Shown one piece after another: positions 18,694 through 35,679 of a stretch of 39,618 nt of DNA. Each line of letters opens with the position of its first letter. Position 1 is the stretch's first letter. The notes beneath the pieces were generated by a model, which was given only the letters and a program-made list of their open reading frames with translations, was not told the DNA's origin and did no database searches. Source of the stretch: Methanomassiliicoccus sp. (GTDB taxonomy: Archaea; Thermoplasmatota; Thermoplasmata; Methanomassiliicoccales; UBA472); assembly GCA_004525545.1 (NCBI GenBank), contig SPCU01000003.1:1-39618 (forward strand), given 5' to 3'. The position numbers were made by a program, and so were the translations under genes.

Positions 18694-18872
18694 GATATCT
18701 CTAATGAAAGACTCACATGGTATCCATATAAGGTTAATTATATTTGAATCTAAAAATTATTTAGTGTTAAAAGCTATTCCACCCCAACGGTCGTTTATCT
18801 CCAGAAAAGCGACGATCTGAGAAAATCAGAAGTTCGAATGAGATAGGCTATCTTCCCGATCCATTCACCTAA

Positions 18873-19919
18873 CTAACAGATCCGAGGGACCGGGTCTCCC
18901 ACCGGGGGTTCCAAAATCCTACGTCCGCCTACTTCGGTACGCATCATGACATGTTTTGTATCCTTGCTCGCCCTCCCCACGATGGCGGCGTTCCTGCCAT
19001 GCTCATCGGCCTGCAAGGCCTTTAAGATCGCATCGGCCATGTCTGGCACGCAGGCAATTATGACCTTCCCCTCGTTGCCGATAGTTAGCGGGTCCAACCC
19101 AAGCATCTCGCTGGCATTCCTCACCGCTTCCGCTACGGGAATGTCCTTCTCCACCAGCTCGATATCGACCTTGGACTTGGAGCTCCATTCATTAATAGCG
19201 TTGGCGAAACCGCCCCTGGTAGCGTCCTTCATGGAGGTGATGCCTCCCACTTCCAGCAGTTTTCCGATCATGTGGTTCAAAGGGGCGCAGTCGCTCTGCA
19301 CCTGGCTCTCGAAGCCGTAACCCTCCCGGAAGGAGAGCAGGGCTATCCCGTGGTCCCCTAATGTCCCCGAGACCAGAATGACATCACCGTCGCGCACGTT
19401 GTCATCGGTAAGCCAGCGAGAGTCCACTTTACGGTAAGTGGAAGCGACCTTCAGGTTGTGGTCCATGGCCGGATGGCGCTTGCCCACGGCAGCGGCCGAT
19501 ATCACCATTTTGTCTATGGCCCCTTTCTCCATGACCTTGGTATCACCGGTGACCACTGGCACCCCGGATATCTCCGAATATCGTCCGATGCTCCGCGTGA
19601 TCCGTTCCAGGGTCTCGATCTCCAATCCTTCCTCCAAGATCATTGACATGGACAACGCCAGGGGCCTACCGCCCATGACCGCGATGTCGTTGACAGTTCC
19701 GCTTACCGCCAGCGAACCGATGTCCCCTCCGGGGAAGAAGATGGGTTTGACGGTGTGCCCGTCAGCAGTGAATATGATGTCGTCCACCACGGCCGCGTCG
19801 TCCATGGAGTCCAGGGACACCTCGGTCTTGATCTTCGGGAGGAACGGTGCGATGGACTTGGCGATGAGCTCCTGCATCATCTCCCCGCCAGCCCCGTGGC
19901 CCATGGTGACCCGTTTCAT
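18873..19919 (-). CDS. hypE: [NiFe]-hydrogenase maturation protein HypE
   Basis: 348 residues from ATG 19919. The PurM/AIR-synthase fold is seen in MGHGAGGEMMQELI, DSMDDAAVVD, SGTVNDIAVMGG, VVTGDTKVM and SMKDATRGG. The C-terminus is PRIC, the HypE tail whose last Cys carries the carbamoyl group that is dehydrated to thiocyanate, source of the CN ligands of the NiFe site (established for HypE/HypF). This implies that the organism makes a [NiFe]-hydrogenase, encoded elsewhere. An upstream in-frame GTG at 20000 was rejected because the TATA element at 19941-19950 lies inside that extension. No other hyp gene is adjacent. Confidence 0.9.
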   Translation of the reverse strand: MKRVTMGHGAGGEMMQELIAKSIAPFLPKIKTEVSLDSMDDAAVVDDIIFTADGHTVKPIFFPGGDIGSLAVSGTVNDIAVMGGRPLALSMSMILEEGLEIETLERITRSIGRYSEISGVPVVTGDTKVMEKGAIDKMVISAAAVGKRHPAMDHNLKVASTYRKVDSRWLTDDNVRDGDVILVSGTLGDHGIALLSFREGYGFESQVQSDCAPLNHMIGKLLEVGGITSMKDATRGGFANAINEWSSKSKVDIELVEKDIPVAEAVRNASEMLGLDPLTIGNEGKVIIACVPDMADAILKALQADEHGRNAAIVGRASKDTKHVMMRTEVGGRRILEPPVGDPVPRIC

Positions 19920-19940
19920 GAATCGCTGAAGAGGGAAGCA

Positions 19941-19950
19941 GATTATTAAG
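19941..19950 (-). promoter_or_regulatory. TATA box of hypE (leaderless)
   Basis: CTTAATAATC on the minus strand is 22-31 bases before ATG 19919. Transcription should start at or near the start codon, which supports this ATG over upstream options. Confidence 0.6.
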
Positions 19951-20067
19951 ATTGCCAAAGAAAGAATGGTCGGGGAGAACCGATTTTTCCGTAACGGCAC
20001 GTCAATAACCTACATTAGGAAGGGAGGAATAGTATTATCTCCCCCATCCTCATATGCGGCAACGGAT

Positions 20068-20144
20068 GGGCCCGTAGGGTAGTCTGGATATCCTTTTGGC
20101 CTTCGAAGCCGAAGACTGGGGTTCGAATCCCCACGGGCCCGCCA
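20068..20144 (+). tRNA. tRNA-Arg(TCG)
   Basis: Acceptor GGGCCCG/CGGGCCC, D stem GGGT/ATCC, anticodon stem TTGGC/GCCGA with loop CTTCGAA (anticodon TCG), T stem TGGGG/CCCCA with loop TTCGAAT, discriminator G and encoded CCA at 20142-20144. A TATA-like AGTATTATCT at 20031-20040 is 28-37 bases upstream. Confidence 0.92.
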
Positions 20145-20168
20145 TCATGCATATACAGTCACCTCAAA

Positions 20169-20175
20169 TTTTTTT
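20169..20175 (+). terminator. Oligo-T terminator of tRNA-Arg
   Basis: A T7 run 25 bases after the encoded CCA end fits archaeal oligo-T termination. Confidence 0.5.
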
Positions 20176-20270
20176 CTCAATCAAGGGCTTTATTGCACCG
20201 GTCTTTACCGTAGGAGTCGAAACGAACGCGCTTTGGGTCCGCTCCACGGTTTTGTCCATGCACTGGGACC

Positions 20271-20280
20271 TTTATATTAA
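20271..20280 (+). promoter_or_regulatory. TATA box before the DUF1638-like gene
   Basis: TTTATATTAA predicts a transcription start near 20300. It suggests that the short downstream gene is transcribed on its own. Confidence 0.5.
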
Positions 20281-20342
20281 AAAAAGGAAATGGTTTAGGT
20301 CGGTGCAATCTCGACCCTGATTGAACCTTCGTTTCGATCATC

Positions 20343-20840
20343 TTGCTCAATGCCAGCGACCAAGTGGTGGACGATTGCATGGGGGTGGCCGCGGGTGGCG
20401 TGGACCCTTACATGCAGATATTAAGATCGAATCACGGTGCGTTCTTCCTGAACCCTATGTGGGCCTCTGATTGGAGGCATTACTTTGTTGACATAATGGT
20501 GCTTCAGAACCCGGACGATCTGGAAGGGGTCAGGTATGTCTCTCAGTATATGAACTACGGAACAGTGACCATGATGTGCACAGGACTCGGGAACAAAGAC
20601 GAATTCCATCGCGATGTGTTGGATTTCTCCAGGGCCTTCAGCCTCAAGGTGGAAGAATGCCAATGCAGCACAAGTGTGGTTGATCGGTCCTATGCCATAG
20701 CCAAGGCGTTGATGACAGCACCTGACCCTAAGGGGCGAAAGGGTGATTATTTGAAAAGGAATGACCGGTCATGGACATCTCGGTCTTGGTGGGGCTTACC
20801 GCAGGATTCATTACGACCATCGGTTTCGTTCCCCAGATAA
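20343..20840 (+). CDS. DUF1638-like protein, apparently N-terminally truncated
   Basis: 165 codons, starting at TTG 20343 (an in-frame TGA lies 21 bases upstream); ATG 20379 is the first ATG. The stretch VVDDCMGVAAGG, GAFFLNPMWASDW and a later YMNYGTVTMMCTGLG resemble the middle of DUF1638, whose members are about 220-280 residues and accompany corrinoid methyltransferase systems in methanogens and clostridia. The first roughly 90-100 residues are missing, and no remnant was found in the 200 bases upstream. The last 20-odd residues overlap the SemiSWEET gene in another frame and look non-native. It may be a decaying copy. The family match is from memory of the motif pattern. Confidence 0.45.
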   Translation: MLNASDQVVDDCMGVAAGGVDPYMQILRSNHGAFFLNPMWASDWRHYFVDIMVLQNPDDLEGVRYVSQYMNYGTVTMMCTGLGNKDEFHRDVLDFSRAFSLKVEECQCSTSVVDRSYAIAKALMTAPDPKGRKGDYLKRNDRSWTSRSWWGLPQDSLRPSVSFPR

Positions 20841-21031
20841 TTAAAGGGTATCGCACCGGTAGCATGAAGGACGTGTCCCTGGTAATGCCCATCATCCTCA
20901 TGGCAGGCATGTCCCTTTGGCTAGCCTATGGGATCATCTTACAAGACCTGCCGATAATCCTCTGGAACTCAGTGGCCATCGTACTGAACGGGGTAATAGT
21001 GGTGCTGAAGTTCCATAACAACGGGGTCTGA
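20771..21031 (+). CDS. SemiSWEET sugar transporter (PQ-loop)
   Basis: 86 residues with three hydrophobic helices (about 3-22, 36-56 and 61-79), the length and layout of a SemiSWEET half-transporter that forms a dimer. The first helix carries the PQ motif in FVPQIIKGYRTGSMKDVS, and VAIVLNGVIVVLKF ends the last helix. Such proteins move mono- or disaccharides down their gradient. ATG 20771 is preceded by a weak AAGGAATGACCGGTC. The gene starts within the 3' part of the DUF1638-like frame, so that upstream frame probably does not reach its apparent stop as a native protein. Confidence 0.85.
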   Translation: MDISVLVGLTAGFITTIGFVPQIIKGYRTGSMKDVSLVMPIILMAGMSLWLAYGIILQDLPIILWNSVAIVLNGVIVVLKFHNNGV

Positions 21032-21066
21032 GGCATCAGCTTCAAAAAACGAGGCCTGGGGAAAGC

Positions 21067-21142
21067 ACCCGAAAGGGTCTCACTTACCGGGGAATGAGAA
21101 CGGGCATCAGGCACGTCATTGGGGTGCCGATTGGAACGCCCG
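21067..21142. other. Intergenic region with several potential hairpins
   Basis: In the 157-base gap after SemiSWEET, three foldable elements follow one another: ACCC-GAAA-GGGT (21067-21078, GNRA-type tetraloop), TCTCA/TGAGA (21078-21082 with 21095-21099), and a two-tier stem with CGGGC/GCCCG (21101-21105 with 21138-21142) enclosing GGCAC/GTGCC (21110-21114 with 21124-21128). No known RNA family was recognised; there is no ACA box or T-run. It may be a 3' UTR structure or chance. Confidence 0.25.
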
Positions 21143-21188
21143 CATGTTAAATGTTGTTCGTGAATGAACTCGATCGGCCCAGGAGCGA

Positions 21189-21593
21189 TCAAGGTACAGA
21201 TCGCTTTCCCAGGTCGGTGAGACTGTACACCCGCCAGTTCTTGTTCTGCCGCCAGACGATCATCCCCGCCTTTTCTAGGATGCTCAGGTGGTAGGACAGT
21301 TTGGAATCGCTCAGTCCGGTTATGTCCTTCAGGACGCAGGGGCACAGTTCACTTCCTCTTAAAAAGTATATGATGGAGAGCCGGAATGGATCGGAAAGAG
21401 CTTGATGCCGCTCGGCCAGGGACTTCAAGGTCGCTTCGTCAGGCATGACGGACCGCAGACCTTCCAGCCCTCCCGCTTCCCTCAGTCCGGCAGCCACTTC
21501 CTGGGGCAGAGATCCATTTCTGTCCCCGGACCGACCATCGCTCTCTTCAGCCATGTCACTAGCGTCCTCAAGACAACAACCGTTACCATCCAT
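21189..21593 (-). CDS. ArsR-family winged-helix regulator with metal-binding-type Cys motif
   Basis: 134 residues from ATG 21593; ATG 21554 is possible and no clear ribosome-binding site is seen. The winged helix spans about 60-134: LSDPFRLSIIYFL, then ELCPCVLKDITGLSDSKLSYHLSILEKAGMI and a wing RQNKNWRVYSL. ELCPCVL matches the ELCVCDL metal-sensing site of As/Sb/Cd-type ArsR repressors, with both Cys kept. The 55-residue N-terminal extension is acidic and has a Cys pair (NGCCLED) that might complete the site. It lies 43 bases after the DUF2284 gene on the same strand. Confidence 0.8.
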   Translation of the reverse strand: MDGNGCCLEDASDMAEESDGRSGDRNGSLPQEVAAGLREAGGLEGLRSVMPDEATLKSLAERHQALSDPFRLSIIYFLRGSELCPCVLKDITGLSDSKLSYHLSILEKAGMIVWRQNKNWRVYSLTDLGKRSVP

Positions 21594-21636
21594 TACTATT
21601 TTACGCTGAGCAGCAGCCCCTATGCCGTTCGAGGCA

Positions 21637-22284
21637 TCATTCCAGAAGCACCAGGCCGACGGACCTGAGGTCGAATCTGACCACCTTGCCATACTGCATG
21701 TCCTGGCAGGGTATGGTGCTCAAGGACCACCCCACCTTCCTTGCGGTGGCGAAGACGTCCATGCCGGCCGCCTCCATGCTCGGGCGGACCAGGTCCATAT
21801 GCCGGCATTTTCGACGCACGCTCTCGTCCACCGACCCTTCACTCTCCTCGGCCACACAATGATCGCAATATATGCAGGGGTAGGCCCCGAAACTGAAGGC
21901 CTTGTAGTGCCCATCGTAGAAGGCGGTCTTCTCCAAGAGGTGCACCGTCCGGTTCACCCAGAGTATAAGATCTCTATACCAAGGGTGGAAATCCTCAGGC
22001 ACGTCCTCCGGCCGGGCATTCTCCCTTCCCGGTATTCCGTCAAATCTGAGCAACAAGGCGTGATTGTACTCGGCTAACATCCTGCGGGTCTCCTCAGGGT
22101 TAGGGGCGTACGGGGGGCAGGAGAGGTGTTTGGCGTACCCTTTACACCCGTAGCGGCATTTGAACCTGACCCAGTCAGCCACCACCACTTCGTGTGCGCT
22201 TAGGGGGGCGGCAACAGCTCCATGCCTTCTGGCGATATCGCCCAGCTTAGCTATCTCCTCGAACGGCGTCAACAACCACATCAC
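21637..22284 (-). CDS. DUF2284 predicted metal-binding protein
   Basis: 215 residues. The signature region FKCRYGCKGYAKHLSCPPYAPNP gives C-x3-C-x8-C with the conserved CPPYAP, and a second Cys group PCIYCDHCVAEE lies further on with RRKCRHMDLVRPS. This is the DUF2284 pattern, proposed to hold a metal or iron-sulphur cluster. GGTG lies immediately before ATG 22284; a TATA-like GTTTAATACC at about 22310 suggests a very short leader. It is followed by the ArsR regulator, so metal- or redox-responsive control is possible but unproven. Confidence 0.8.
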   Translation of the reverse strand: MMWLLTPFEEIAKLGDIARRHGAVAAPLSAHEVVVADWVRFKCRYGCKGYAKHLSCPPYAPNPEETRRMLAEYNHALLLRFDGIPGRENARPEDVPEDFHPWYRDLILWVNRTVHLLEKTAFYDGHYKAFSFGAYPCIYCDHCVAEESEGSVDESVRRKCRHMDLVRPSMEAAGMDVFATARKVGWSLSTIPCQDMQYGKVVRFDLRSVGLVLLE

Positions 22285-22347
22285 CGATTGAAATAGTCCG
22301 CTAGACCGGTATTAAACATGCGGTATGCGCGGGGTCAACGGTCTCGA

Positions 22348-22622
22348 TCAGAACCGTAAAAAGATGTCCAAGACCCCTACGTATCGGTAGAGAAGATAGA
22401 TCACCAGTCCATAGGCCAGCCCCCGAAGGATGAATACCGCGGGTTCCAGATTCCAGTCAGCACCAGGGCGTGGGACAACCCGAACATGCCGAAGACCAGG
22501 GCCAATATCAATGGTGGGGCATGCCTGCTCCTTCGGTAACCCAGTACACCAATGGCCAGGATTACCAGGCAAAGTAAAAGATTCACTATAGTGACCAGAC
22601 CGTCCGTTCCCACACCGAGCAT
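22348..22622 (-). pseudogene. Small three-TM membrane protein, frameshifted
   Basis: Two overlapping frames each hold half of one hydrophobic protein. From ATG 22622, two membrane helices run to VLTGIWN. The other frame continues with PAVFILRGLAYGLVIYLLYRY and ends at 22348. The 275-base span is one base short of a whole number of codons, so a single-base deletion between about 22415 and 22455 explains it; the G5 run at 22420-22424 (minus strand) is one candidate. Corrected, the protein would be 91 residues. Function is unknown. A sequencing error is as likely as real decay. Confidence 0.6.
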
Positions 22623-22667
22623 TACAATAATATTTATGCTATAAAAAACCCATTTTCTTCAATTCGC

Positions 22668-23444
22668 TCATTTTAATAGACAGAAGGTGCAGTAAATTGT
22701 GGTCCGGCCTCCGACCTTTGCCGATCGAAGCTCCCGACCGCATCTGGGGCAAGGTTCTCCCCCATCTCTCTGTCGAAGCAGATAATCAGCAGGAAACCTA
22801 TCAAAATCGGTCCCTGCCTTGATGGCAGTATCAAGCACCGTTCGCATTCTGCTCCATGTTCCTATCAGACGGTCATGTGGGATCTGAGAAGCCACTGCTG
22901 TAGGTGCAAGCCTTTCTTGTAACAGCACCTCATCGGCGTAAAGGTTCCCTATGCCCGCGACCACCTTCTGGTCCAGCAGCACGGCCTTGATGGCCTTCCT
23001 TCTCCTACATATTCTACGATAAAATTCCTCCTCTCCGATGCTGAGCGCATCTGGTCCCAATCCCTTCTCCGATACGAACGTCATGACATTCTTCACGACC
23101 TGAAAGCGTCCGAATCGTCGGGGATCATCGAAAATGACCCGACCGTGATCCAGGTCCAGGACCATCCTCTGATGGGAGGTCTTCCCTCCGCATCTGAACA
23201 GGTGAAGGCTACCGCTCATTCCCAAGTGTATGCGCAAGGCTCCGTGATCAAGCAATAAGAAGAGATGCTTACCATGGCGGTCCGTGCCTACGATGCGCCT
23301 TCCCTCCAGGCGGGAACTGAACTCATTGGCGTTACCGCCCACCAGCATCTTCAGGTCTAATGCATCCGATTTCACGACCCGCTGGCCAACCAGTTCCTCA
23401 TGCAACTGCCGGCGGGCTGTCTCCACCTCCGGCAGTTCCGGCAT
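22668..23444 (-). CDS. mutM: Formamidopyrimidine-DNA glycosylase (Fpg/MutM family)
   Basis: 258 residues. It starts MPELPEVE, so the catalytic Pro2 and Glu3 are present. RHGKHLFL supplies the conserved Lys, VVAGIGNLYADEVL is the helix-two-turn-helix with its DNA-contacting Asn, and the C-terminus carries a CPRC...CTFC zinc finger with GGRTTIYC. It removes oxidised purines such as 8-oxoguanine and nicks the abasic site. GGTGA, overlapping the stop codon of the preceding thiol-protein gene, lies 3 bases before ATG 23444, which indicates coupled translation in the arsA-thiol-mutM operon. Fpg enzymes are uncommon in archaea, so bacterial origin is likely. Confidence 0.93.
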   Translation of the reverse strand: MPELPEVETARRQLHEELVGQRVVKSDALDLKMLVGGNANEFSSRLEGRRIVGTDRHGKHLFLLLDHGALRIHLGMSGSLHLFRCGGKTSHQRMVLDLDHGRVIFDDPRRFGRFQVVKNVMTFVSEKGLGPDALSIGEEEFYRRICRRRKAIKAVLLDQKVVAGIGNLYADEVLLQERLAPTAVASQIPHDRLIGTWSRMRTVLDTAIKAGTDFDRFPADYLLRQRDGGEPCPRCGRELRSAKVGGRTTIYCTFCLLK

Positions 23445-23447
23445 GGC

Positions 23448-23786
23448 TCACCACATGGTCAGGGACTGGTCATTAGCAGCTTCCATCATCACTTCTTTCA
23501 GCTTCTCCAAGGTCGGTACTCCACCGTAGAGCTTCAGGTGCTCGTTGATGAAAAGAGCGGGCGCGACGGCCGCACCGTACTTCTTGAACAAGGGCTGGAT
23601 CTCTGCGAGGTAAAAGTGTTGGATGCCCAATTGCGCTTCCGTTGCAGTGATCAAATTGAGGTCCGCCTCCAATCCGGTCTCCTGCAAGGCCTGTTTCAAC
23701 CTATCCACGTACTGCTTGTCATAGGCCGCGTACTGGGGATGGCAGCAGGAAACGGAGAAGATGGTCAACCTCAATTTATTCGCCAT
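23448..23786 (-). CDS. Small thioredoxin-fold-like protein with vicinal Cys pair (ArsD-like)
   Basis: 112 residues. It opens with a beta strand followed by FSVSCCHP, a CC pair at residues 14-15, then helix-rich sequence, YGAAVAPALFINEHLKLYGG (a likely cis-Pro strand of a thioredoxin fold) and a final helix. This resembles ArsD-type metallochaperones, which pass As(III)/Sb(III) to ArsA, but similarity is only in the plan. Its first 11 bases overlap the end of the arsA-like gene, and mutM starts 3 bases after its stop. It could be a redox or metal-thiol partner of the ATPase. Confidence 0.6.
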   Translation of the reverse strand: MANKLRLTIFSVSCCHPQYAAYDKQYVDRLKQALQETGLEADLNLITATEAQLGIQHFYLAEIQPLFKKYGAAVAPALFINEHLKLYGGVPTLEKLKEVMMEAANDQSLTMW

Positions 23787-24681
23787 ACAGACCTCTTCCC
23801 ACCCTTCTTAATATGTCCATCCCATAAACGTCGGTGTCGAGAAGAGGCACTTCCTTGCGGGTTATGGACGAGAACCGTTCCTCGATCTCTTTCAGGTACT
23901 TGTCCTGTGTTGCCCTTCTCCTTTCTAAGAACCAGTTGCCCTGAAGAACCTCCTTTGGGATGACCTCGTTGATGATGAGCGAGCGCACATTGATGCCGAA
24001 ACCTGAGAGGTCCTCGATGGCTCTGGCGGTCTCCTCGATGGGCAGCTTTTCCGGCAGCAGCACCAGGTTGACGGCGGAGATACTGGTGTCCGAAAGTCCT
24101 TTGATCGAACGGTCGTAACGGGCTTTCTCTAACTCCAGATCGGCCACCATCTGCTCATCGTAAACGAAGCCCAGAGCCTCCGACAGCTCTCGGCGATTCT
24201 TGATCTGTTTCGAGATGTATCCCGACCAGTCGAAGGGCATGGACAGCTCTCTTAGGGTGTGACCTGTAGGTGCCGTGTCGAAGACCACCTTGTCATGTTC
24301 GGTATCCTCGAAGAAGCTGACGAACTGGTCGAAGGCGGCGATCTCCTCAGTGCACGGGGTGGATAGCAGCTCACTGCCGAACATGGTGGAGAAGCCCTGC
24401 ATCATGCCCTCCAACCTGGTCTGGAAGACTCCCATGGCCTTCTTGGGGTTGATGTTCAATCCGCACAAATTGCGTTCCGTACCGATCTTGGTTATCTCCG
24501 TCTCACCGATATGCTGGCCATAAATGGCCGATAGGCTGATGGTCGGGTCAGTCGCTACGATCAGCGTCTTGTATCCGTGATCGGCAAGCCAGGTTGCAGT
24601 GGTCGCGGCCATGGTGGTCTTGCCTACCCCACCTTTTCCACCGTAGAACAGGAACTTCTTGGTCTCAATGATCTCTCGCAT
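23776..24681 (-). CDS. arsA: ArsA/Get3-family ATPase
   Basis: 301 residues from ATG 24681. Deviant Walker A is FLFYGGKGGVGKTTMA, switch I follows ATDPTISLSAIYG, and switch II is VFDTAPTGHTLREL, the ArsA/Get3 signature. A single ATPase half is present, as in Get3 and archaeal ArsA. The role may be arsenite export support or insertion of tail-anchored membrane proteins; no ArsB pump gene is in the window. Alternative starts are ATG 24696, 24708 and 24726; the last sits at the edge of the TATA region and is unlikely. It is divergent from heliorhodopsin across a short shared promoter region. Confidence 0.88.
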   Translation of the reverse strand: MREIIETKKFLFYGGKGGVGKTTMAATTATWLADHGYKTLIVATDPTISLSAIYGQHIGETEITKIGTERNLCGLNINPKKAMGVFQTRLEGMMQGFSTMFGSELLSTPCTEEIAAFDQFVSFFEDTEHDKVVFDTAPTGHTLRELSMPFDWSGYISKQIKNRRELSEALGFVYDEQMVADLELEKARYDRSIKGLSDTSISAVNLVLLPEKLPIEETARAIEDLSGFGINVRSLIINEVIPKEVLQGNWFLERRRATQDKYLKEIEERFSSITRKEVPLLDTDVYGMDILRRVGRGLYGE

Positions 24682-24725
24682 AATGTTCTCTTTCATAACA
24701 ATCGACATTGTGAGGAGGAAGTACA

Positions 24726-24740
24726 TTAATATTATTTTTG
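24726..24740 (-). promoter_or_regulatory. TATA box of the arsA-thiol protein-mutM operon
   Basis: On the minus strand an AAAAATAATATTAA-type element is centred at about 24735, predicting transcription from near 24709. It lies in the same short gap as the heliorhodopsin TATA box, back to back. Confidence 0.55.
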
Positions 24741-24767
24741 AAAGGGCTCGACATTCATCCGCAAGTC

Positions 24768-24776
24768 ATTTATATA
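24768..24776 (+). promoter_or_regulatory. TATA box of the heliorhodopsin gene
   Basis: TTTATATA with flanking AT is 38-46 bases before TTG 24814. A transcription start near 24797 leaves a short leader containing the GGAGGGGG ribosome-binding site. Confidence 0.6.
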
Positions 24777-24813
24777 CAATAAAACTCTTTTTTTATTGAT
24801 TGGAGGGGGTTCT

Positions 24814-25596
24814 TTGGCAGATGTTGATACAGAAGATATCAGGTTCAAGAAGTTGAGGAACTTCAACGCCTTAATGGGGTTGTTCCATTTCATCCAGGCA
24901 ACTTTGATGCTTTTGGTCAGTAATTCCGTCTCCATAAACATCACTTCGAATTTTCTTTTCTATGACGAGCTGACCGAGACCTTGATGACCAAGACCGACG
25001 TGGTATACAGTTTACCGATCGGTCCATCAGTGGCCGCATTCCTTTTCATTTCGGCTATCGCCCATTGGCTCCTAGCATCCCCCTGGCTCTATCCTTGGTA
25101 CGTTAGGAACCTGAAGAACCACATCAACTATGCCAGGTGGATCGAATACTCGTTCAGCGCCTCCTGGATGCTGGTCATCATCGCCCTGCTGGTCGGCATT
25201 TTCGACTTCGGGGCCTTACTGCTCATCTTCTTCTCCTGCATGGTCATGAACCTTTGCGGAATGCTCATGGAGATGAGGAACCAGGATAGGGAAAAGGTGG
25301 ATTGGCTACCTTTCTACGTGGGGTGCATCGCTGGGGTCATACCCTGGGTGGTCATCATAGCCTATTTCGTAGGTGCTATAGCCCCGTACTCTGACACCAT
25401 TCCCTCCTTCGTCTATCTGATCATCGTGTCCCTGTTCATCACGTTCAATATATTCCCATTGAACATGGTGTTCCAGTACCGTAGGAAGGGTAAATGGGCC
25501 GATTATCTGGTGGGGGAGAGGGGGTACATAATCCTGTCCCTGTTCGCCAAGAGCATTCTGGCTTGGCAGGTGTGGTCGGGGACTCTTAGGGGATGA
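24814..25596 (+). CDS. Heliorhodopsin
   Basis: 260 residues with seven hydrophobic helices, starting at TTG 24814 because GGAGGGGG at 24802-24809 ends 4 bases upstream; an in-frame TTG at 24796 precedes that site. Heliorhodopsin hallmarks are clear: ARWIEYSFSASWM in helix C, with E111 as Schiff-base counterion; GKWADYL and GERGYIILSLFAKSILAWQV in helix G, with K246 as the retinal-binding Lys; and IAHWLLASP in helix B. Heliorhodopsins bind retinal, have an inverted topology (N-terminus inside) and a slow photocycle, and generally do not pump ions; signalling or enzyme-regulating roles are proposed. No retinal-synthesis gene is in the window. Confidence 0.93.
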   Translation: MADVDTEDIRFKKLRNFNALMGLFHFIQATLMLLVSNSVSINITSNFLFYDELTETLMTKTDVVYSLPIGPSVAAFLFISAIAHWLLASPWLYPWYVRNLKNHINYARWIEYSFSASWMLVIIALLVGIFDFGALLLIFFSCMVMNLCGMLMEMRNQDREKVDWLPFYVGCIAGVIPWVVIIAYFVGAIAPYSDTIPSFVYLIIVSLFITFNIFPLNMVFQYRRKGKWADYLVGERGYIILSLFAKSILAWQVWSGTLRG

Positions 25597-25656
25597 TCCA
25601 TAGGATCCTCTTTTATGGGCGGCTTGACCGACACTCCAATTTTTCCCCATTCCTTT

Positions 25657-27156
25657 TTATTCTGAGGTATATCTTCGAACGTTCCCGTACTGTACCAATC
25701 GACCGTTCTCGAGCACGGAGATCGCCCCGTGTCCACTGCAGACCAGGCACTTTCGGCCATCGTTCCTGGCCGATTCCACCTCATCGATCAGTCGCAGCAG
25801 ACCCTTGCGTTCCTTTGAGGCCTTGACGCTGTCTACGTTCACCGTGGTCATAAGGTTCTTGGCCAGTGTGGCGAACTCCTTGCGCTCTTCGGTCAAGCTA
25901 TCAAAGTTGATCAGACTATCACCGGTGAAAACGACGAGCTGGGCGGGAAGGAAATAGAACACCTGGCCCTGTGTGTGCCCGCCGAACCCTTCCAGGACCT
26001 CGCACTCCATGTCGGCCACCTTCGTTCTGGCCAATATGGTGAAGTCGCCCCTTTTTCCTAAGGTCTCGGTGTGGAACGTCCTAGGCTCCGCGTTCACGGA
26101 GAAGGCGGAGAAGAGGTTGATCAGCTTGGTGTAGATCTCAGCCAGTACGGACCCCTCGCTCTCCGAACCGTAGGCTCGATTGGACTGTCGTATCACTTCC
26201 ACCGTATCAGGGTGCATCCAGACCTCTGCGTTCAACAGTCCGGCGGAACCGGAGTGATCGGCATCCCCGTGAGTTATGAACGCCTGACGTACCATGCCCA
26301 TGCCGCCCCACCCCTCTCTTTCCATGAGCAGGTCCAGATCACGGAAGTATATTCCGAAACCGGTATCGATGATGGTCACGTCCGCTCCCTTCAACAACAG
26401 GTAGGAGTTCCCCCCGCAAGGCATCTGCACACAGAGCAATCTCGCTCCATCCAGGTCCAGCTCCTGCAGGTCGGCGTAAAAGCTCTTCCCACTCGTCCTC
26501 TTAAGATCCTTCCCGCTACGCAGGACGTCCGAGAAGACCTGCTTAGGGTCCTTGCCCATGTTCATCAGTTCCTGCGCTACGTGGTTGATATCGGACAGCA
26601 ACCTCAACAGGAACGCATCTTCAGCACGTCCGAGCAGTCCCCGCAGCTCCTGGGCGAAGCGAATGTAGAACACCGTGTCGTCTAGGTGCTGGCCAGTGGT
26701 ATCATATTCCAATATCTCCAATGGATAGCGGGACTTGAGGTCCTCCAGGAGATGGTCCACCGTCTGGGCCTTCTCCACTGTCAGAGAAACGGTCAGACGC
26801 TCCGGGTGTTTGCCGCGATCATCGAAGTCCAACAGATCGATGTTGCACTTTGCGGCGGTTGTGTAATTAAGAAAGTCGAACAACGCGCCACTGCTGTTTG
26901 GTAATATCACCTGGAACTTGAGAAAGCTGGGAACGATCATTTGCCCCTGAAGGTAGCCAATGGCCTCCAGCTCTGTCCTCATGGCCAGGTACTCCTCGTC
27001 GGAGCAGCGGGCCTCGAAGAACACAGTATAGGGATCGATCCTCTTGTCGTATTGGATCCGGTCGATGTTCCCGCCGTGCCGCTTGACGATCTCGGCCGCC
27101 CTATGCAAGGCCCCTGGTTCATCGGGCATCTTGGCAACGAAATAATGACGCTGCAT
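25657..27156 (-). CDS. ACT-ACT-metallo-beta-lactamase fusion protein
   Basis: 499 residues. Residues about 3-70 (HYFVAKMPDEPGALHRAAEIV) and about 80-155 (FQVILPNSSGALFDFL) are two ACT-like domains, which usually bind amino acids. A helical linker (about 160-235) follows. The MBL fold spans about 240-485 with its metal ligands: H296-x-D298-x-D300-H301, H394, D413 and H476. The set is complete, so a binuclear hydrolase is likely. A ligand-controlled hydrolase is the simple reading; the substrate is unknown. TATA element GGTATAAGG (27181-27189, minus strand) is about 29 bases from the start, fitting a leaderless mRNA. Confidence 0.85.
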   Translation of the reverse strand: MQRHYFVAKMPDEPGALHRAAEIVKRHGGNIDRIQYDKRIDPYTVFFEARCSDEEYLAMRTELEAIGYLQGQMIVPSFLKFQVILPNSSGALFDFLNYTTAAKCNIDLLDFDDRGKHPERLTVSLTVEKAQTVDHLLEDLKSRYPLEILEYDTTGQHLDDTVFYIRFAQELRGLLGRAEDAFLLRLLSDINHVAQELMNMGKDPKQVFSDVLRSGKDLKRTSGKSFYADLQELDLDGARLLCVQMPCGGNSYLLLKGADVTIIDTGFGIYFRDLDLLMEREGWGGMGMVRQAFITHGDADHSGSAGLLNAEVWMHPDTVEVIRQSNRAYGSESEGSVLAEIYTKLINLFSAFSVNAEPRTFHTETLGKRGDFTILARTKVADMECEVLEGFGGHTQGQVFYFLPAQLVVFTGDSLINFDSLTEERKEFATLAKNLMTTVNVDSVKASKERKGLLRLIDEVESARNDGRKCLVCSGHGAISVLENGRLVQYGNVRRYTSE

Positions 27157-27269
27157 CGGGATGGGAGAACGCTAGAAACGCCTTATACCTTGGTCTATAA
27201 CTCGTCGGGATCGACGTTGACCACAAGGTCAACGATATGGCGGGGTTCAAATAATGATAGACGAATGAT

Positions 27270-29075
27270 ATGAACATGCCCGAGCACCCTGTTGTTAGGA
27301 GTCTCTTGGCGTTCACCATCGTTCTCGTGATCATCATGGCAAGCCTGGTGATGATATTCTCTCCGGTGGAAGAAGAATGGCCTCAGGGTGATCTACCTAC
27401 CTTCGTCAGCGAATCACAGATGAGAAGATATCTGGCGGAGCGCCATGAGAGCCGCGGTGACCTATTCCCGCTGCTGACCGATGAGGCAGGCAGTACTAAC
27501 AACTACCATTCGCAGACCAATGTCCAAGTGTCTGGTGTAGACGAGATGGACTCGGTCAAGACTAATGGGGAGATACTGTTCCTCACCAATTATGACAGTG
27601 TCGCCCTGGTCAAGGCTTATCCATCGCATGACATGACGAACATGTCAGAATTGAACTTCACCGAACTTTGCGGGAAGGGCGATTCATACGGTTCTGTTCT
27701 GGGGTTGTTCACATATGATGACATTTTAGCCGTGATCATCAGCGAGTTCGGTCTGGTAACGATCTCATCTCCAATACTGGGCATTCCCTGGAATAACGGG
27801 GGGCCATCGACCGTCTGCTGCCTTATCGATATATCGGACCCATATGCCCCCGATATCATGTCCAGGCATTCGATCAGTGGGTACTACTCTGGAAGCAGGT
27901 TGATCGGGGAGAACCTCTACTTGCTCGCTCAGGAGAACATATGGATGACCGGGGAGGTATCCATCCCTCAGATCGGGATCGACGGGGAAGTTGCGGACAT
28001 ACCTATCGATTGCATCCGCTTCGATCCCTTGGCCAAAGAAGTAGAGGCATACCTGAACGTCCTGTCCTTGGACCTGAACACCAAGGAGAACAACTTCACC
28101 TCGATCATCACCGGTTACTCTGGCGTGATATACGTCTCCCAGGACAATATCTATCTGACGTATGTGGAATATGAATATTCGTCATCTGACAGCCAACTGG
28201 GTTCAGTGGACGAAACCGTCACCACCGTGTTCCGACTTCACCTGGACGGATCGAAGGTCACGCCTCAGGCCAAGGGGCAGGTGAACGGGTTCCCGTTGAA
28301 CCAGTTCTCATTGGACGAATATGAAGGGATGCTGCGTATCGCTACCTGCAGCGGTTGGACCAACCCAGACAATCGTGTATATGTTCTGGACCAGGAATTG
28401 AAGACGGTCGGTTCCTTGACCGGGATCGCTCCAGGGGAGTCAATTCAATCGGCCAGGTTCATGGGCGATACCCTGTACCTAGTGACGTTCCTGCGCACTG
28501 ATCCACTGTTCGTCATCGATCTATCCGACCATACCTCGCCCATAGTGCTTGGCGAGCTGGTGGTCCCCGGTTTCTCGACATATCTGCACCCCTGTTCCGA
28601 TCACAGGCTCCTAGGCATAGGATTGGAGAACTGGACGCTCAAGGTATCCCTCTTCGATGTGAGCGACCCGGCCTCTCCTAACGAGGTCGACACATACTCA
28701 GCCCCTCTCGACTCTTGGTCTGAGGCTCTCTGGGACCACAAAGCAGTGCTATTTGACGATAGGTACGATCTCCTGATGATCCCGGTCACGAACTGGAACG
28801 AGGGATCATATTACACCCAGGAGCAGGTCCTCGTCATACAGGTCAGCGAGGAGGGGCTTGCTTTAAAGACCAATCTGACCAATGGTCCTTACCAGGGTTC
28901 AGCACGATGCGCGATCATAGAGGACGTATTGTACACGATCACCCCCACGACGGTGGTGGCATGGGACATGGACACGTTCGATATGCTGGAACAGATCAGC
29001 TATCACCAGGATCCGGATGTATGGCCTGGAGCGATCGACGATCGTGGCGAAATCGAGGTCAAGACGAACAACTGA
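27270..29075 (+). CDS. Secreted beta-propeller protein (PF09826-type)
   Basis: 601 residues. A short cytoplasmic N-terminus and one hydrophobic segment (about 11-29) form a signal anchor. The family block TNVQVSGVDEMDSVKTNGE follows near residue 85, then repeated four-stranded blade-like segments with conserved Asp/Gly turns to the C-terminus (DISDPYAPDI, DLSDHTSPIVLGEL, DVSDPASPNEV are three recognisable blade ends). It is predicted to be extracytoplasmic and anchored. The next gene, a membrane-anchored winged-helix protein, begins 16 bases later, suggesting an operon and a shared process. ATG 27276 is an alternative start; a TATA-like CAAATAATGA lies just upstream. Confidence 0.85.
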   Translation: MNMPEHPVVRSLLAFTIVLVIIMASLVMIFSPVEEEWPQGDLPTFVSESQMRRYLAERHESRGDLFPLLTDEAGSTNNYHSQTNVQVSGVDEMDSVKTNGEILFLTNYDSVALVKAYPSHDMTNMSELNFTELCGKGDSYGSVLGLFTYDDILAVIISEFGLVTISSPILGIPWNNGGPSTVCCLIDISDPYAPDIMSRHSISGYYSGSRLIGENLYLLAQENIWMTGEVSIPQIGIDGEVADIPIDCIRFDPLAKEVEAYLNVLSLDLNTKENNFTSIITGYSGVIYVSQDNIYLTYVEYEYSSSDSQLGSVDETVTTVFRLHLDGSKVTPQAKGQVNGFPLNQFSLDEYEGMLRIATCSGWTNPDNRVYVLDQELKTVGSLTGIAPGESIQSARFMGDTLYLVTFLRTDPLFVIDLSDHTSPIVLGELVVPGFSTYLHPCSDHRLLGIGLENWTLKVSLFDVSDPASPNEVDTYSAPLDSWSEALWDHKAVLFDDRYDLLMIPVTNWNEGSYYTQEQVLVIQVSEEGLALKTNLTNGPYQGSARCAIIEDVLYTITPTTVVAWDMDTFDMLEQISYHQDPDVWPGAIDDRGEIEVKTNN

Positions 29076-29091
29076 TATCGGAGATGAACAA

Positions 29092-29673
29092 TTGAAGGTG
29101 GAGCTTGATAGGACGGCCTTATTCGCCCTGGCCTCGGACACCCGGCTAGAGATCCTGAAGGTGCTGCAAAACGAGCGACGGACCCTCTCCCAGCTGGCCG
29201 AGCTTCTTGACGTGGACAAGTCCGCGGTTCATCGCCATCTCAGGAAGCTCGAGGACGGAGGATTGATCAAGAAATCCGAGGACCACGGCTTCATCTACCA
29301 TTCACTGACCTGGAAGGCCAGGGACCTGATCTCTCCGGGGGAGAACACCCGGATCGTGGTGTTACTATCGGCCTCCCTCGTCATGCTGGTGATCTGTTGT
29401 ATACTTGTCGTGGTAGCCTCTGCCGGAGTACCAGGGGTGGGGGAGGCCAGCGACAACTATGATCCAGACGAATTAACCCAACTAACTGAAAAGGTGCAGG
29501 AAGTGCAGTACGCCCTGTACGCGGTGGTGATGATGGTCGCCGCAGTAGCTGTAATAGCTGTCTATATGGCCTTCGGTCTGCTCCACCGGCCTAGACAATC
29601 CGGGGCTGGGACGGCCGAGGATTGGGAGGGGCCAGAGGAAGTGGTAGGGCACCACATCGAAGACCAGATCTGA
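29092..29673 (+). CDS. Membrane-anchored winged-helix (ArsR-type) transcription regulator
   Basis: 193 residues from TTG 29092; GGAGATG ends 5 bases before it, whereas the upstream ATG of the same frame lies inside the beta-propeller gene. Residues about 5-75 are a winged helix (LASDTRLEILKVLQ, LSQLAELLDVDKSAVHRHLRKLEDGGLI). Two membrane helices follow (about 88-109 and 146-165), separated by an acidic loop of some 35 residues that would face outward; the acidic C-terminal tail returns inside. It is therefore a one-component regulator that could read an extracytoplasmic signal. Pairing with the secreted beta-propeller protein suggests that the latter is the sensor or target. Ligand unknown. 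Confidence 0.85.
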   Translation: MKVELDRTALFALASDTRLEILKVLQNERRTLSQLAELLDVDKSAVHRHLRKLEDGGLIKKSEDHGFIYHSLTWKARDLISPGENTRIVVLLSASLVMLVICCILVVVASAGVPGVGEASDNYDPDELTQLTEKVQEVQYALYAVVMMVAAVAVIAVYMAFGLLHRPRQSGAGTAEDWEGPEEVVGHHIEDQI

Positions 29674-29689
29674 TCGGCCGCAGGCATCC

Positions 29690-29923
29690 TTACTTCATCT
29701 TGGCGGCCATGCTGACCGCCACCTTGAACTGGTTTAGCATGCATGGTTCGACATAATAGCCCTTCATGGTGCGAAGTTCACCATACATATCATCGGGGGA
29801 CCTATCCACCAGTTCCTTGACCGATCCTATACCTAGAAGGTATAATGGTTCCGCTAGCTTCTCTCCCACGATGGGGATGCTGCGCAGCTCCTGCATGATC
29901 GATTCCTTATCATCCATATCCAT
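29690..29923 (-). CDS. Small helix-hairpin-helix protein (Cdd1-like)
   Basis: 77 residues. RSIPIVGEKLAEPLYLLGIGSVKEL is a helix-hairpin-helix, followed by PDDMYGELRT, a Cys, and MLNQFKVAV, the pattern of the 'pathogenicity locus Cdd1' family (PF11731), whose name says little about function. Nonspecific DNA binding is possible. A TATA box at 29946-29954 predicts transcription at ATG 29923, so the longer upstream frame, which overlaps the neighbouring membrane-protein gene, was rejected. Confidence 0.7.
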   Translation of the reverse strand: MDMDDKESIMQELRSIPIVGEKLAEPLYLLGIGSVKELVDRSPDDMYGELRTMKGYYVEPCMLNQFKVAVSMAAKMK

Positions 29924-29945
29924 CGTTAAAAGATGGCAGCGCCTA

Positions 29946-29954
29946 CCATATAAT
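29946..29954 (-). promoter_or_regulatory. TATA box of the Cdd1-like gene (leaderless)
   Basis: ATTATATGG on the minus strand is centred 27 bases before ATG 29923, between this gene and the stop codon of the upstream membrane-protein gene. Confidence 0.6.
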
Positions 29955-29982
29955 CGTTTTCGACTCACGTTCCTTGGCGAGA

Positions 29983-30603
29983 TCAGGGACGCAACTGGGA
30001 GGCCCGGCGTATGATCCCCTTGAAAGACTCCGCCATCTGTCCATCTTCCATTCCGCTCATGAATAGGTAGCATAGGGTGAAGGCGAAGTAAGGTGCTAGA
30101 TAGTGCCAGTCGAAAGGCATGATGATGATCAACAGTACCAGGCCCAGGTCGCTGAAGGGTCGATAGTGCAGTATATATTCTGCCATCTGCCCCAGACCTC
30201 TTCTGTGAGCGAAGGAGTCCGCGATCTCATCGATCGCCCCGGCAATGAGGAAGATCACTATGGGTATGGGCAACAGCTCCGCCCCCCAGATCAATGCCCC
30301 CACGATGAAGGTGGCCAAGGCCACTATCGTCCCCGTCAGAAAGCTCCAGTTATCGATCTTTTTGGTGAGCACCAAGCTAATGAGCATGGCCATGAAGAAC
30401 GCGGTCGAGAACCCTCCGTCCAGGATCATGCTCGCGCCCATGAGGAGTCCTGATAGCACGGCCAATGTCTTGGCCAGGGTGATGGACCCCATGCCCTCAT
30501 CGTACGCCTGATCGATATATTTTATAGCCCCTCCCAGAAAGGCATAGGTGGCTACTAAGAAGGCTAGGTTTAGGAGGGCTAACTCTTCCCCTACAGTGAA
30601 CAT
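29983..30603 (-). CDS. Multi-TM membrane protein of unknown function
   Basis: 206 residues with about six or seven hydrophobic helices and few charges outside them. Conserved-looking polar positions are IDQAYDEG near residue 30, a buried MILDGGFS, LTKKIDNW, and AIDEIADSF near residue 125, which could form a polar pocket within the membrane. No family with known function was recognised. It begins at ATG 30603 after an AT-rich spacer and is followed by the Cdd1-like gene, which has its own promoter. Confidence 0.75.
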   Translation of the reverse strand: MFTVGEELALLNLAFLVATYAFLGGAIKYIDQAYDEGMGSITLAKTLAVLSGLLMGASMILDGGFSTAFFMAMLISLVLTKKIDNWSFLTGTIVALATFIVGALIWGAELLPIPIVIFLIAGAIDEIADSFAHRRGLGQMAEYILHYRPFSDLGLVLLIIIMPFDWHYLAPYFAFTLCYLFMSGMEDGQMAESFKGIIRRASQLRP

Positions 30604-30961
30604 ATCTAACGTTTTAAAAACTCTCCCGATCGTTAGCCCGATTGGGCGGCATCAGTATCCTTGGGTTAGATAAGCGTTTTGTAATTAACAAGGATTAATT
30701 AGGACAATTTTCGACAATCAACGAAAAAATCAATCAATAAAGTGATGATATCTAACGTATTGCCTACATCATTACAAATATTGTCGAATTGTAATTTTTT
30801 CTAACTGGATCGATATCTCTCACTTAACGGCCTAAAATTTTGCACTTTTGTTATTTGATATCATATTCATGATAATAGAAACGTGGTATGATGATATTCC
30901 TTAGGTATATCATAACCGGTTATTTCTTTCATCCCCAGCAGGGACTGGAGGTGGTTTACGA
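30604..30961. other. AT-rich intergenic region with an imperfect inverted repeat
   Basis: This 358-base spacer is the longest in the window and much richer in A/T than its neighbours. ACAATTTTCGACAAT (30703-30717) is matched by the inverted ATTGTCGAATTGT (30779-30791), differing by two extra T. ATCTAACG occurs at 30603-30610 and 30750-30757. A GTTTTAAAAAC sequence near 30611 may serve the minus-strand membrane-protein gene. TATA-like elements for the micro-ORF occur near 30855-30880. No origin-recognition element or initiator gene was recognised. Confidence 0.5.
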
Positions 30962-31012
30962 ATGGATAAGAGCAAGAGGCCGGAAAAGAAGGCTGAGACC
31001 AAGAAGAAGTAA
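30962..31012 (+). CDS. 16-residue Lys-rich micro-ORF
   Basis: The peptide MDKSKRPEKKAETKKK is encoded by ATG 30962 to TAA 31012. It is preceded by GGAGGTGG (30947-30954), a near-perfect anti-SD match ending 7 bases before the ATG, and followed 31 bases later by a perfect hairpin plus T7 run. Eight of 16 residues are Lys or Arg. An isolated transcription unit with strong translation signals suggests a real, very small protein, perhaps RNA- or ribosome-associated; it is not eL41. No family was recognised. Confidence 0.5.
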   Translation: MDKSKRPEKKAETKKK

Positions 31013-31043
31013 TTCTTTCTTCTCTCCAAGTGAACCTAACCTC

Positions 31044-31079
31044 GTCAGGATGAAATGTCCTGACATCCTTCCTTTTTTT
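31044..31079 (+). terminator. Hairpin plus oligo-T terminator
   Basis: GTCAGGA (31044-31050) pairs perfectly with TCCTGAC (31058-31064) over a 7-base loop, and T7 follows at 31073-31079. It ends the micro-ORF transcript before the next promoter at 31088. Confidence 0.75.
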
Positions 31080-31087
31080 ATTCATCA

Positions 31088-31096
31088 CTTATATAC
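31088..31096 (+). promoter_or_regulatory. TATA box of the phospholipase C-like gene (leaderless)
   Basis: CTTATATAC is centred 26 bases before ATG 31118, predicting transcription from the start codon itself. Confidence 0.65.
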
Positions 31097-31117
31097 TGGC
31101 TCTTTGTAACGGGGTTC

Positions 31118-31858
31118 ATGAAATGGCGTTCTCATCTCTCCATCGGCAACGCTATCGCCGATCGGTTCCAGATGTCGGAGGGAGAGAGGAGGTCATTCCT
31201 GGATGGGATGGTGGAACCGGACCGCCATGGGGAGAGGGCCAACAGGCCGGGGCACTCCTACCGTGTAAGACATCACAGAGCATCCGACCGGGTCATTATG
31301 CTTCACGTCTGGATGGCCAGAAAATCGTTCCTACGCAATGATACCTATCAGGGTTACCGGCACCTAGGGATGGCGCTCCATTACATTCAGGACAAGTCCA
31401 CAGCAAAGGGGTTCATGGGGCTGACGCACGAACGACGGGAGAAGAAGCTGGCCGGGTTGACCGTTCCGCAAAAGGCCGTTGAAGGGGGGTTGAGAAAATA
31501 TGTCTCATCACCCGAGTTCGTCCGAGGGACGATCGTCAGGACCAAGCCCAAGAAGGACCTGGAGGGGATCATGGTCCAAGCTTCGTTCAGATCGGCGGCG
31601 GTCGCCGCGGCGGTCCTTGACGCCAGCCAGCCACCTCTTTTTAGTAAACAAATGTCCCTTGCACGCAGGAGACACGCCCTGATTCACGCGCCACTGGCCG
31701 TAGGATCCATGGCCGTTGGATTATCGTTAGCACTCGCATGGTATTCGCCTTTTCCGATCATCGTACCTCTGCCCTTGGTCCTATTGGCACTGATATTGGA
31801 CCGCCCATACCGTCAACTCAAACGGTTGGCAGAATGGAACGGTCTGAGAAGGCATTAA
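31118..31858 (+). CDS. Zinc-dependent phospholipase C-like membrane protein
   Basis: 246 residues. The N-terminal half has His/Asp positions spaced as in the phospholipase C/S1-P1 nuclease fold: SHLSIGNAIADRF, FLDGMVEPDRHG, VRHHRASDRV, and GYRHLGMALHYIQDKST, where an Asp follows HYIQ as in PF00882. Two hydrophobic helices near the C-terminus (about 190-230) would anchor it. No signal peptide is visible, so the catalytic part would be cytoplasmic, unusual for this fold. Activity is uncertain, since the trimetal ligand set was not fully traced. The photolyase gene begins 26 bases later and may share the transcript. Confidence 0.55.
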   Translation: MKWRSHLSIGNAIADRFQMSEGERRSFLDGMVEPDRHGERANRPGHSYRVRHHRASDRVIMLHVWMARKSFLRNDTYQGYRHLGMALHYIQDKSTAKGFMGLTHERREKKLAGLTVPQKAVEGGLRKYVSSPEFVRGTIVRTKPKKDLEGIMVQASFRSAAVAAAVLDASQPPLFSKQMSLARRRHALIHAPLAVGSMAVGLSLALAWYSPFPIIVPLPLVLLALILDRPYRQLKRLAEWNGLRRH

Positions 31859-31884
31859 GGTCGCGGGGGAGGATTCTATTCCGC

Positions 31885-33243
31885 ATGCAGGCGACAGTTC
31901 CTGGTTACGAGGGCCGATGGCGATCAGCACGTAATTCCTCAGGTGCTGGCCCCGTTGTTTATTGGATGAGCCGGGACCAGCGACTGCAAGACAATTGGGC
32001 GCTGTTCCATGCATGGGCCAGGGCCCGCCAGGAAGGGCGTCCATTAGGCATTGTGTTCTGTCTCGCTCCTCGTTTCTCATTGGCCGGTCCTAGGCATTAT
32101 CGTTTCATGCTGCAGGGGTTGAGGGAACTGACAATCAATGCCAAAAGGGTCGGGTTGCCGTTCTTCCTGCTACAAGGAGAACCGGAGAACGTCCTTCCCC
32201 GTTTCCTGGAGGAATGGGAGATATCTCTGACCGTAACCGATTTCGATCCTCTGAGGGAGAAGAGGGCATGGAGAAAAACATCGATGGAAAGGAGCGAGTG
32301 CGGGTTCGAAGAGGTGGACGCGCACAACATTGTACCATGCTGGAATGCATCTCCAAAACAGGATTATGCTGCATCCACCTTTCGTCCAAAGGTATCCGCC
32401 CATCTTTCCGAATACATCGATCATCTCCCTCCATTCCCCTCAAAATTTCCTTCCTGGCCAGGTGATGTGCCGGAGGTGAACTTCGAAGGAGCGTTCGACC
32501 AACTTGGACCGTATCAGGAAAAGCATTGGCGTGGTGACGAATCAGAGGCGCGCACGGTCCTGAACGATTTTATAACCAAGCGCCTTGAAGGGTATGGCCT
32601 CGGTCGTAATGATCCTAACTTGGACGCTCAATCTGGGTTATCCCCTTACCTGCACTTTGGCATGATATCAGCTCAAGCGGTGGCTTTGGCGGTCAGGGGA
32701 TCATCCGCTCCCCAAGGTGATCGAGAGGCTTTTCTGGAAGAGCTCATAGTCCGTCGAGAACTCTCAGACAATTTTTGTCATTACAATCCCAGATACGATT
32801 CGGTCGATGGATTTCCAGCTTGGGCCAGGGCAACTCTGAGGGAGCACATGGGCGATCGCCGCGAATATTTGTACGACGAGGTAGAACTAGGGCTTTCCAG
32901 AACCCACGACCAACTTTGGAACGCGGCCCAGAAGCAGATGGTCGAACAGGGAAAGATGCACGGCTGGCTACGCATGTATTGGGCCAAGAAGATCTTGGAA
33001 TGGACGGAGACGCCCGAAGAGGCCTTGCGCATCGTCATATCCCTGAACGATAGGTACGAGATGGACGGGCGCGACCCGAACGGTTATACCGGGGCGGCTT
33101 GGAGCATTGGAGGGGTGCACGACCGGGCTTGGGCTGAGCGGCCGATCTTCGGGAAGATCCGATATATGAATTTGAACGGTGCTAGAAGAAAGTTCGATGT
33201 GGACCGGTTCGTCCGATCGATCAACGACGGTCCAGAGATATAG
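31885..33243 (+). CDS. phr: Class II CPD photolyase
   Basis: 452 residues from ATG 31885, with GGGGGAGGAT about 10 bases upstream; ATG 31834 is also possible but overlaps the preceding gene. Class II features are VVYWMSRDQRLQDNWAL near the N-terminus, SGLSPYLHFGMIS, GWLRMYWAKKILEWT and GYTGAAWSIGGVHDRAW in the FAD-binding half. It repairs cyclobutane pyrimidine dimers using blue light and FADH-. The 3' end overlaps the convergent RNase J-like gene by 23 bases; the stop is TAG. Together with heliorhodopsin it shows that the organism meets light. Confidence 0.93.
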   Translation: MQATVPGYEGRWRSARNSSGAGPVVYWMSRDQRLQDNWALFHAWARARQEGRPLGIVFCLAPRFSLAGPRHYRFMLQGLRELTINAKRVGLPFFLLQGEPENVLPRFLEEWEISLTVTDFDPLREKRAWRKTSMERSECGFEEVDAHNIVPCWNASPKQDYAASTFRPKVSAHLSEYIDHLPPFPSKFPSWPGDVPEVNFEGAFDQLGPYQEKHWRGDESEARTVLNDFITKRLEGYGLGRNDPNLDAQSGLSPYLHFGMISAQAVALAVRGSSAPQGDREAFLEELIVRRELSDNFCHYNPRYDSVDGFPAWARATLREHMGDRREYLYDEVELGLSRTHDQLWNAAQKQMVEQGKMHGWLRMYWAKKILEWTETPEEALRIVISLNDRYEMDGRDPNGYTGAAWSIGGVHDRAWAERPIFGKIRYMNLNGARRKFDVDRFVRSINDGPEI

Positions 33244-34738: not shown

Positions 34739-34799
34739 TCCAGTCAGGAAAAGAACACCCGGAGCGGATTTATGACTATCCCCTCTATTTTCTAAAGGA

Positions 34800-35102: not shown

Positions 35103-35250
35103 TCTCCATCATAGCCAACTCACCCATCTTTTCATGTTAAAAACCCTTTCTCCCTAAGATATCGAGGTAACATGATCGATGGGTGCCGATCCCTTTTAGC
35201 GAATCGAAAAGCACTGATGAACATACAAGCCTCCTCGGCATCCAGCGGTA

Positions 35251-35595: not shown

Positions 35596-35614
35596 ACGAT
35601 TTCAACTAATTTCC

Positions 35615-35623
35615 CAGTATATG
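35615..35623. promoter_or_regulatory. Divergent TATA region between the small membrane protein and leuC/hacA
   Basis: AGTATATGT reads as a TATA-like element on both strands. On the minus strand it is 20-28 bases before ATG 35595. On the plus strand it predicts a start near 35645 and a leader of about 35 bases for leuC/hacA. Confidence 0.45.
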
Positions 35624-35679
35624 TAAGTTTTTCAAAGATGTTAGAAACGACTATATCGGGCGATACAGTTGGAGACATC

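Follow-up and report, generated by a model that had tools for sequence, protein, structure and literature searches.

The function of heliorhodopsins is still debated. The best solved relative of the protein studied here is TaHeR from the Thermoplasmatales archaeon SG8-52-1 (6IS6, 7U55), which stems from the same phylum, shares the Schiff-base lysine, the counterion glutamate and the loop pattern, likewise carries no Zn-finger extension, and matches over the full length (residues 5-259, E = 3.1e-75). In Trichococcus flocculiformis, a heliorhodopsin (TfHeR) and a class II CPD photolyase (TfPHR) lie in one operon, where binding of TfHeR to TfPHR enhances repair (PMC9769723). The Znf-HeR loci of Thermoplasmatales also reveal an archaeal heliorhodopsin near photolyase genes, together with an N-terminal zinc ribbon and nearby carotenoid genes (PMC8612252); a heliorhodopsin-photolyase link in other organisms has been reported in both studies. 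Heliorhodopsins of Bathyarchaeota, which are anaerobic sediment archaea, display the same gap in retinal genes as described below (PMC7110647).

Here, we have analysed a stretch of 39,618 nucleotides (the window) on contig C128 of genome G000 (1.6 Mb, 98% complete). In comparison with TaHeR, its heliorhodopsin belongs to an mcrA-bearing methanogen, has other gene neighbours and occurs in a genus with two heliorhodopsin types. Though a class II CPD photolyase is near, as in T. flocculiformis, heliorhodopsin and photolyase are 6.3 kb apart (stop to start) and have been lost independently in relatives. The window has neither nearby carotenoid genes nor an N-terminal zinc ribbon of the Znf-HeR type, the protein starting 13 residues before the PF18761 domain, and in contrast to Bathyarchaeota it stems from another phylum and from a methanogenic order, in which the gene pattern was mapped over 61 genomes. 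With a probability of about 0.6, we consider the gene to encode a functional, monocistronic methanogen heliorhodopsin that serves as a light-dependent regulator with scavenged retinal and not as an ion pump, its type A having been acquired and type B lost.

McrA was present in G000 and in 54 of the 61 sampled relatives, and the named relatives matched by the heliorhodopsin protein were MAGs of Methanomassiliicoccaceae and Methanomethylophilaceae; together, this identifies the host as a methanogen of the Methanomassiliicoccales, an order whose members are strict anaerobes. Of the 61 genomes sampled from the order, 31 carry the heliorhodopsin gene (the raw tally of 32 counts one degenerate match, in G031), and on the McrA tree its presence changed at least 12 times. 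The protein family is known; among the papers searched, we found none that discusses heliorhodopsin in this host group in its main text, though it may be listed in a supplementary table. We know of no methanogen that responds to light via a rhodopsin.

The heliorhodopsin gene and its protein

Judged by its sequence, the open reading frame is beyond doubt a genuine full-length heliorhodopsin, as had been predicted for this archaeon. It matched PF18761 over the full profile (1-242) with 304.8 bits (cut-off 26.7, E = 5.1e-91) and the HeR equivalog NF038020 with 314.3 bits (cut-off 100); these scores, together with those of the neighbours (Table 1), exclude chance. The TTG start codon follows a GGAGG (24802-24806) located 7 nt upstream, and the TATA-like box lies about 40 nt upstream of the start; AT-rich stretches of this kind were also seen 5' of most relatives' copies. 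No co-directional partner gene that would point to a target of the heliorhodopsin stands beside it.

Table 1. Features of the window around the heliorhodopsin gene
Feature	Position	Strand	Evidence
Fpg/MutM formamidopyrimidine-DNA glycosylase	22668..23444	-	PF01149/PF06831/PF06827
Thioredoxin-like small thiol protein, overlaps ArsA	23448..23786	-	PF13192 27.9 bits (just above cut-off), weak TIGR00412
ArsA/GET3-family ATPase, divergent from heliorhodopsin	23776..24726, likely start 24696	-	PF02374 246.7 bits
TATA-like box ATTTATATAC, probable own promoter of heliorhodopsin	24768..24777	+	putative, read from sequence
Heliorhodopsin (type A, one of two types in genus)	24814..25596	+	260 aa; PF18761, NF038020, 6IS6 match
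ACT-like + metallo-beta-lactamase protein (ACT-MBL), convergent with heliorhodopsin	25657..27156	-	PF00753 38.3; ACT 25.4, below cut-off 27
Secreted beta-propeller protein	27270..29075	+	PF09826 419.5 bits
ArsR-like winged-helix protein, C-terminal hydrophobic stretches	29017..29673	+	NF033788 46.9 bits, below cut-off 55
p246, predicted zinc phospholipase C / S1-P1 nuclease-like, C-terminal membrane hairpin	31118..31858	+	alignment, predicted fold
Class II CPD photolyase	31885..33243	+	TIGR00591 574 bits (cut-off 550); synteny

The two residues named in the original prediction proved to be the expected ones, since E111 in the third helix (within RWIEYSFSASWM, which begins at residue 108) aligns to the counterion glutamate of 6IS6 and K246 in the last helix (within AKSILAWQ at residue 245) to its Schiff-base lysine. 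In an alignment of order members and 6IS6, E111 was kept in 40 of 40 sequences and K246 in 39, the sole exception being a frame-broken copy, and other pocket residues were also kept in nearly all copies. With three to five lysines and arginines in cytoplasmic loops versus none or one in external loops, the hydropathy and positive-inside counts, like the full-length alignment to 6IS6, fit a predicted seven-helix protein with the N-terminus in the cytoplasm, that is, an inverted topology. Purifying selection is shown by dN/dS values of 0.037 for type A (G000/G009) and of 0.072 and 0.087 for type B.

Retinal supply and putative role

Genes for retinal synthesis (blh/brp), which should accompany a self-supplied heliorhodopsin, did not turn up: Blh (PF15461, TIGR03753) scored over the cut-off in 0 of 61 genomes, its positive controls being weak, with 1 of 194 phylum genomes scoring. 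The RPE65-type oxygenase (PF03055) and the CarR-type lycopene cyclase (TIGR03462) were likewise detected in none of the 61, the latter search having scored three control genomes. Weak PF15461 matches (1e-4 to 1e-6) in some relatives were rejected as false positives; the two loci that were opened belong to a GspE/GspF-like cluster and encode membrane proteins of archaeal type II/IV secretion. Family searches of G000 revealed no phytoene synthase (PF00494) either, so that this genome does not show the combination of carotenoid synthesis and a 15,15' cleavage enzyme by which a retinal-autonomous host is recognised.

Phytoene synthase was present in seven genomes, all seven of them heliorhodopsin-positive. 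In some Methanomassiliicoccales, it is clustered with a CrtI-like oxidase and a UbiA prenyltransferase (L110, L111, L112, and L113), which suggests that there are methanogens with acyclic carotenoids, perhaps C50 ones. As a source of retinal these clusters were rejected, with no CarR-type cyclase or cleavage enzyme detected in the order and no phytoene synthase in G000.

Due to the lack of recognised retinal-synthesis genes, retinal, if used, must be scavenged. Heliorhodopsins have been described in organisms without a retinal pathway, and added retinal was bound quickly through an opening (PMC9296517). For an anoxic habitat, we infer such scavenging; the protein could also function without retinal or with another polyene. 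According to our preferred reading, the apoprotein would bind retinal taken from neighbouring organisms at K246, light would isomerise it, and a slow photocycle would alter the cytoplasmic face of the heliorhodopsin, which in turn may act in trans on a partner that is either soluble or in the membrane and modulate it. The photolyase would be one candidate for this partner, though not an obligate one, and the heliorhodopsin would probably serve as a switch for light warning or photoprotection and not as an ion pump.

A light-driven ion transporter like V2HeR3 of giant viruses would come from the same family, for whose viral members transport has been reported (PMC9448325), but the window protein is nearest to the archaeal TaHeR group and not to the viral one, and the prokaryotic members studied are regulators (PMC9529153, PMC9769723, PMC11109279), so we regard transport as highly improbable. 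The missing retinal pathway would also suit a heliorhodopsin that is used with neither light nor retinal, be it as a structural component of the membrane or as a membrane protein that binds zinc or lipid. The conservation of K246, E111, and the other pocket residues, however, and the genus-level co-occurrence with photolyase, which points to light exposure, render this use quite improbable, if somewhat less so than transport.

A broader version of our preferred reading, in which strictly anaerobic Methanomassiliicoccales sense light via a heliorhodopsin loaded with the retinal of oxygenic or aerobic neighbours, the type at the site having been exchanged, is tentative and somewhat doubtful; if true, organisms on both sides of the oxic-anoxic boundary would share retinal as a commodity for light signalling. 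With heliorhodopsin in about half of the sampled genomes, a detected retinal-forming enzyme in none, and photolyase gained and lost separately, the order forms a natural test set that could separate a photolyase helper from broader light regulation and that also puts to the test whether anaerobes rely on scavenging for their retinal.

Gene neighbourhood and photolyase

The predicted operon of arsA, thiol protein and fpg genes, divergent from the heliorhodopsin, was recovered in the window, the genes overlapping or lying 3 bp apart; the Fpg protein revealed its N-terminal domain (104.2 bits) together with H2TH and a zinc finger. On the other side, the ACT-MBL gene, whose protein is found over most of the order, ends 60 nt past the heliorhodopsin stop. 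A small Cdd1/helix-hairpin-helix protein (29690-29914, 59 bits), with a weak match to DUF4332, is also kept in this region; the heliorhodopsin operon of T. flocculiformis has a DUF4332 gene as well (PMC9769723).

In the genera g1 (that of the window), g2, and g7, the order TRX-ArsA, heliorhodopsin, ACT-MBL, p127, p206, beta-propeller, ArsR-like, p246, photolyase, and LeuC is kept, with gene losses and small swaps, and ArsA adjoins the heliorhodopsin site in g3 as well as in these three. Within the family, the neighbours are therefore not free to vary, but the block, spanning HypE to MEMO with genes of unrelated functions and also holding ArsA, ACT-MBL, LeuCD, and RpsB, is by its gene content general synteny with many non-light genes. 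Fpg lies within the ArsA-Trx operon only in g1 (tblastn synteny). In other genera and families of the order, heliorhodopsin sits elsewhere with other neighbours; a recurrent partner outside the block was sought and rejected, only lineage-local repeats being seen and none common. The site is cleanly empty in G011 and was left unscored in G001 and G005, whose contigs end there.

These unrelated functions, the other neighbours elsewhere, the many presence changes, and the empty site all favour a gene order without functional meaning, in which a habitat gene, often gained and lost, was placed between ArsA and ACT-MBL by ancestry. We rate the chances of this as about even, the same site bearing type A, type B, or both, so that its location or the divergent promoter region may matter after all. 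It concerns the neighbourhood and is compatible with our preferred reading of the protein as a light-dependent regulator.

The class II photolyase was found where it had been predicted, about 6 kb away, and the distance between the two genes is 4-8 kb in six genomes (G000, G002, G009, G010, G015, and G021). Across the 61 genomes, 19 have both heliorhodopsin and photolyase, 12 heliorhodopsin only, 2 photolyase only, and 28 neither (p = 7e-6), and a class II photolyase is present in nine of 13 heliorhodopsin genera versus none of ten others (9/4/0/10, p = 0.0016). In G007 (contig C137, L090 7744-7996), an in-frame internal deletion has left only both ends of heliorhodopsin, with 84% identity to type B over the last 19 codons, and the photolyase of this genome is broken, too. 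The positive residues that the window protein has in cytoplasmic loops two and three may be added to this; TfHeR reportedly binds photolyase through E97, R162, and K227.

All this would be expected of a light and DNA-damage module as in T. flocculiformis, with heliorhodopsin sensing light, modulating the nearby photolyase, and working with Fpg. That proposal, made from the window alone, is supported in part, by the link reported elsewhere and by the co-occurrence across genera, while the nearby DNA-repair genes mostly reflect an old gene order that relatives share and are not proven to form a light-repair unit. Heliorhodopsin and photolyase share no operon, with at least five genes on both strands between them, and Fpg joins in one genus only. 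G004 and G006 showed no photolyase match though their heliorhodopsin is constrained (dN/dS 0.087) and though the profile also picks up other photolyase classes in control genomes; G008 and G018 have a photolyase without heliorhodopsin. Within g1, the association was not significant (p = 0.52), nor was it over eight independent pairs taken from the McrA tree to control for ancestry (4.4 going the same way and 0.1 the opposite way; median p 0.125). Though the module is thus unlikely, it is less so than a use without retinal; the simplest reading of the co-occurrence is a common habitat factor, namely light exposure at sunlit sites, with optional interaction.

The conserved neighbour of the photolyase is p246, which ends 26 bp before the photolyase start on the same strand. 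Both genes are adjacent in the families f1, f3, and f6, with heliorhodopsin near or not, and also in G012, G016, G023, and G032, where heliorhodopsin is far off; p246 is therefore a possible photolyase-associated protein. Its AlphaFold2 model (pLDDT 88.7) resembles phospholipase C structures in Foldseek (best E 0.04, prob 1.00), and the alignment (A1) revealed an invariant H/D/E pattern (HxxxD, HxxxE) and W3. A further class II photolyase of G000 was seen in part, at the edge of another contig (G000:C22:6-728).

Two heliorhodopsin types at one site

In the tree, the window heliorhodopsin groups with copies from G002 and G009 (type A), which are sister to those of Methanomethylophilaceae-like sediment MAGs (100/99), and types A and B are separate with support of 100/99 and 95/91. 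The site between ArsA and ACT-MBL is occupied by type B in G004, G006, G010, G015, and G021, by A and B in tandem in G002 and G009, and by A alone in G000, while G003 has type B beside ACT-MBL at a contig edge. On this comparison, the type A of the window is not the ancestral copy of the locus, the original B being missing in G000. Most likely, A came from another lineage beside the resident B in an ancestor and B was later lost in G000, the direction being the probable one. A horizontal origin of type A is proposed because of one gene tree and the patchy distribution.

Between G000 and G009, the heliorhodopsin dS is 0.83 and that of neighbours 0.12-0.32. This high value resembled the mark of a recent replacement of the gene but was not relied on, since identity is uneven elsewhere in the region as well, ranging from 73-79% to 97%. 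In the part of the window from 18440 to 36731, compared with L037, the DNA alternates between stretches of 73-79% and of 93-97% identity to G009, its nearest relative, suggesting mosaic recombination.
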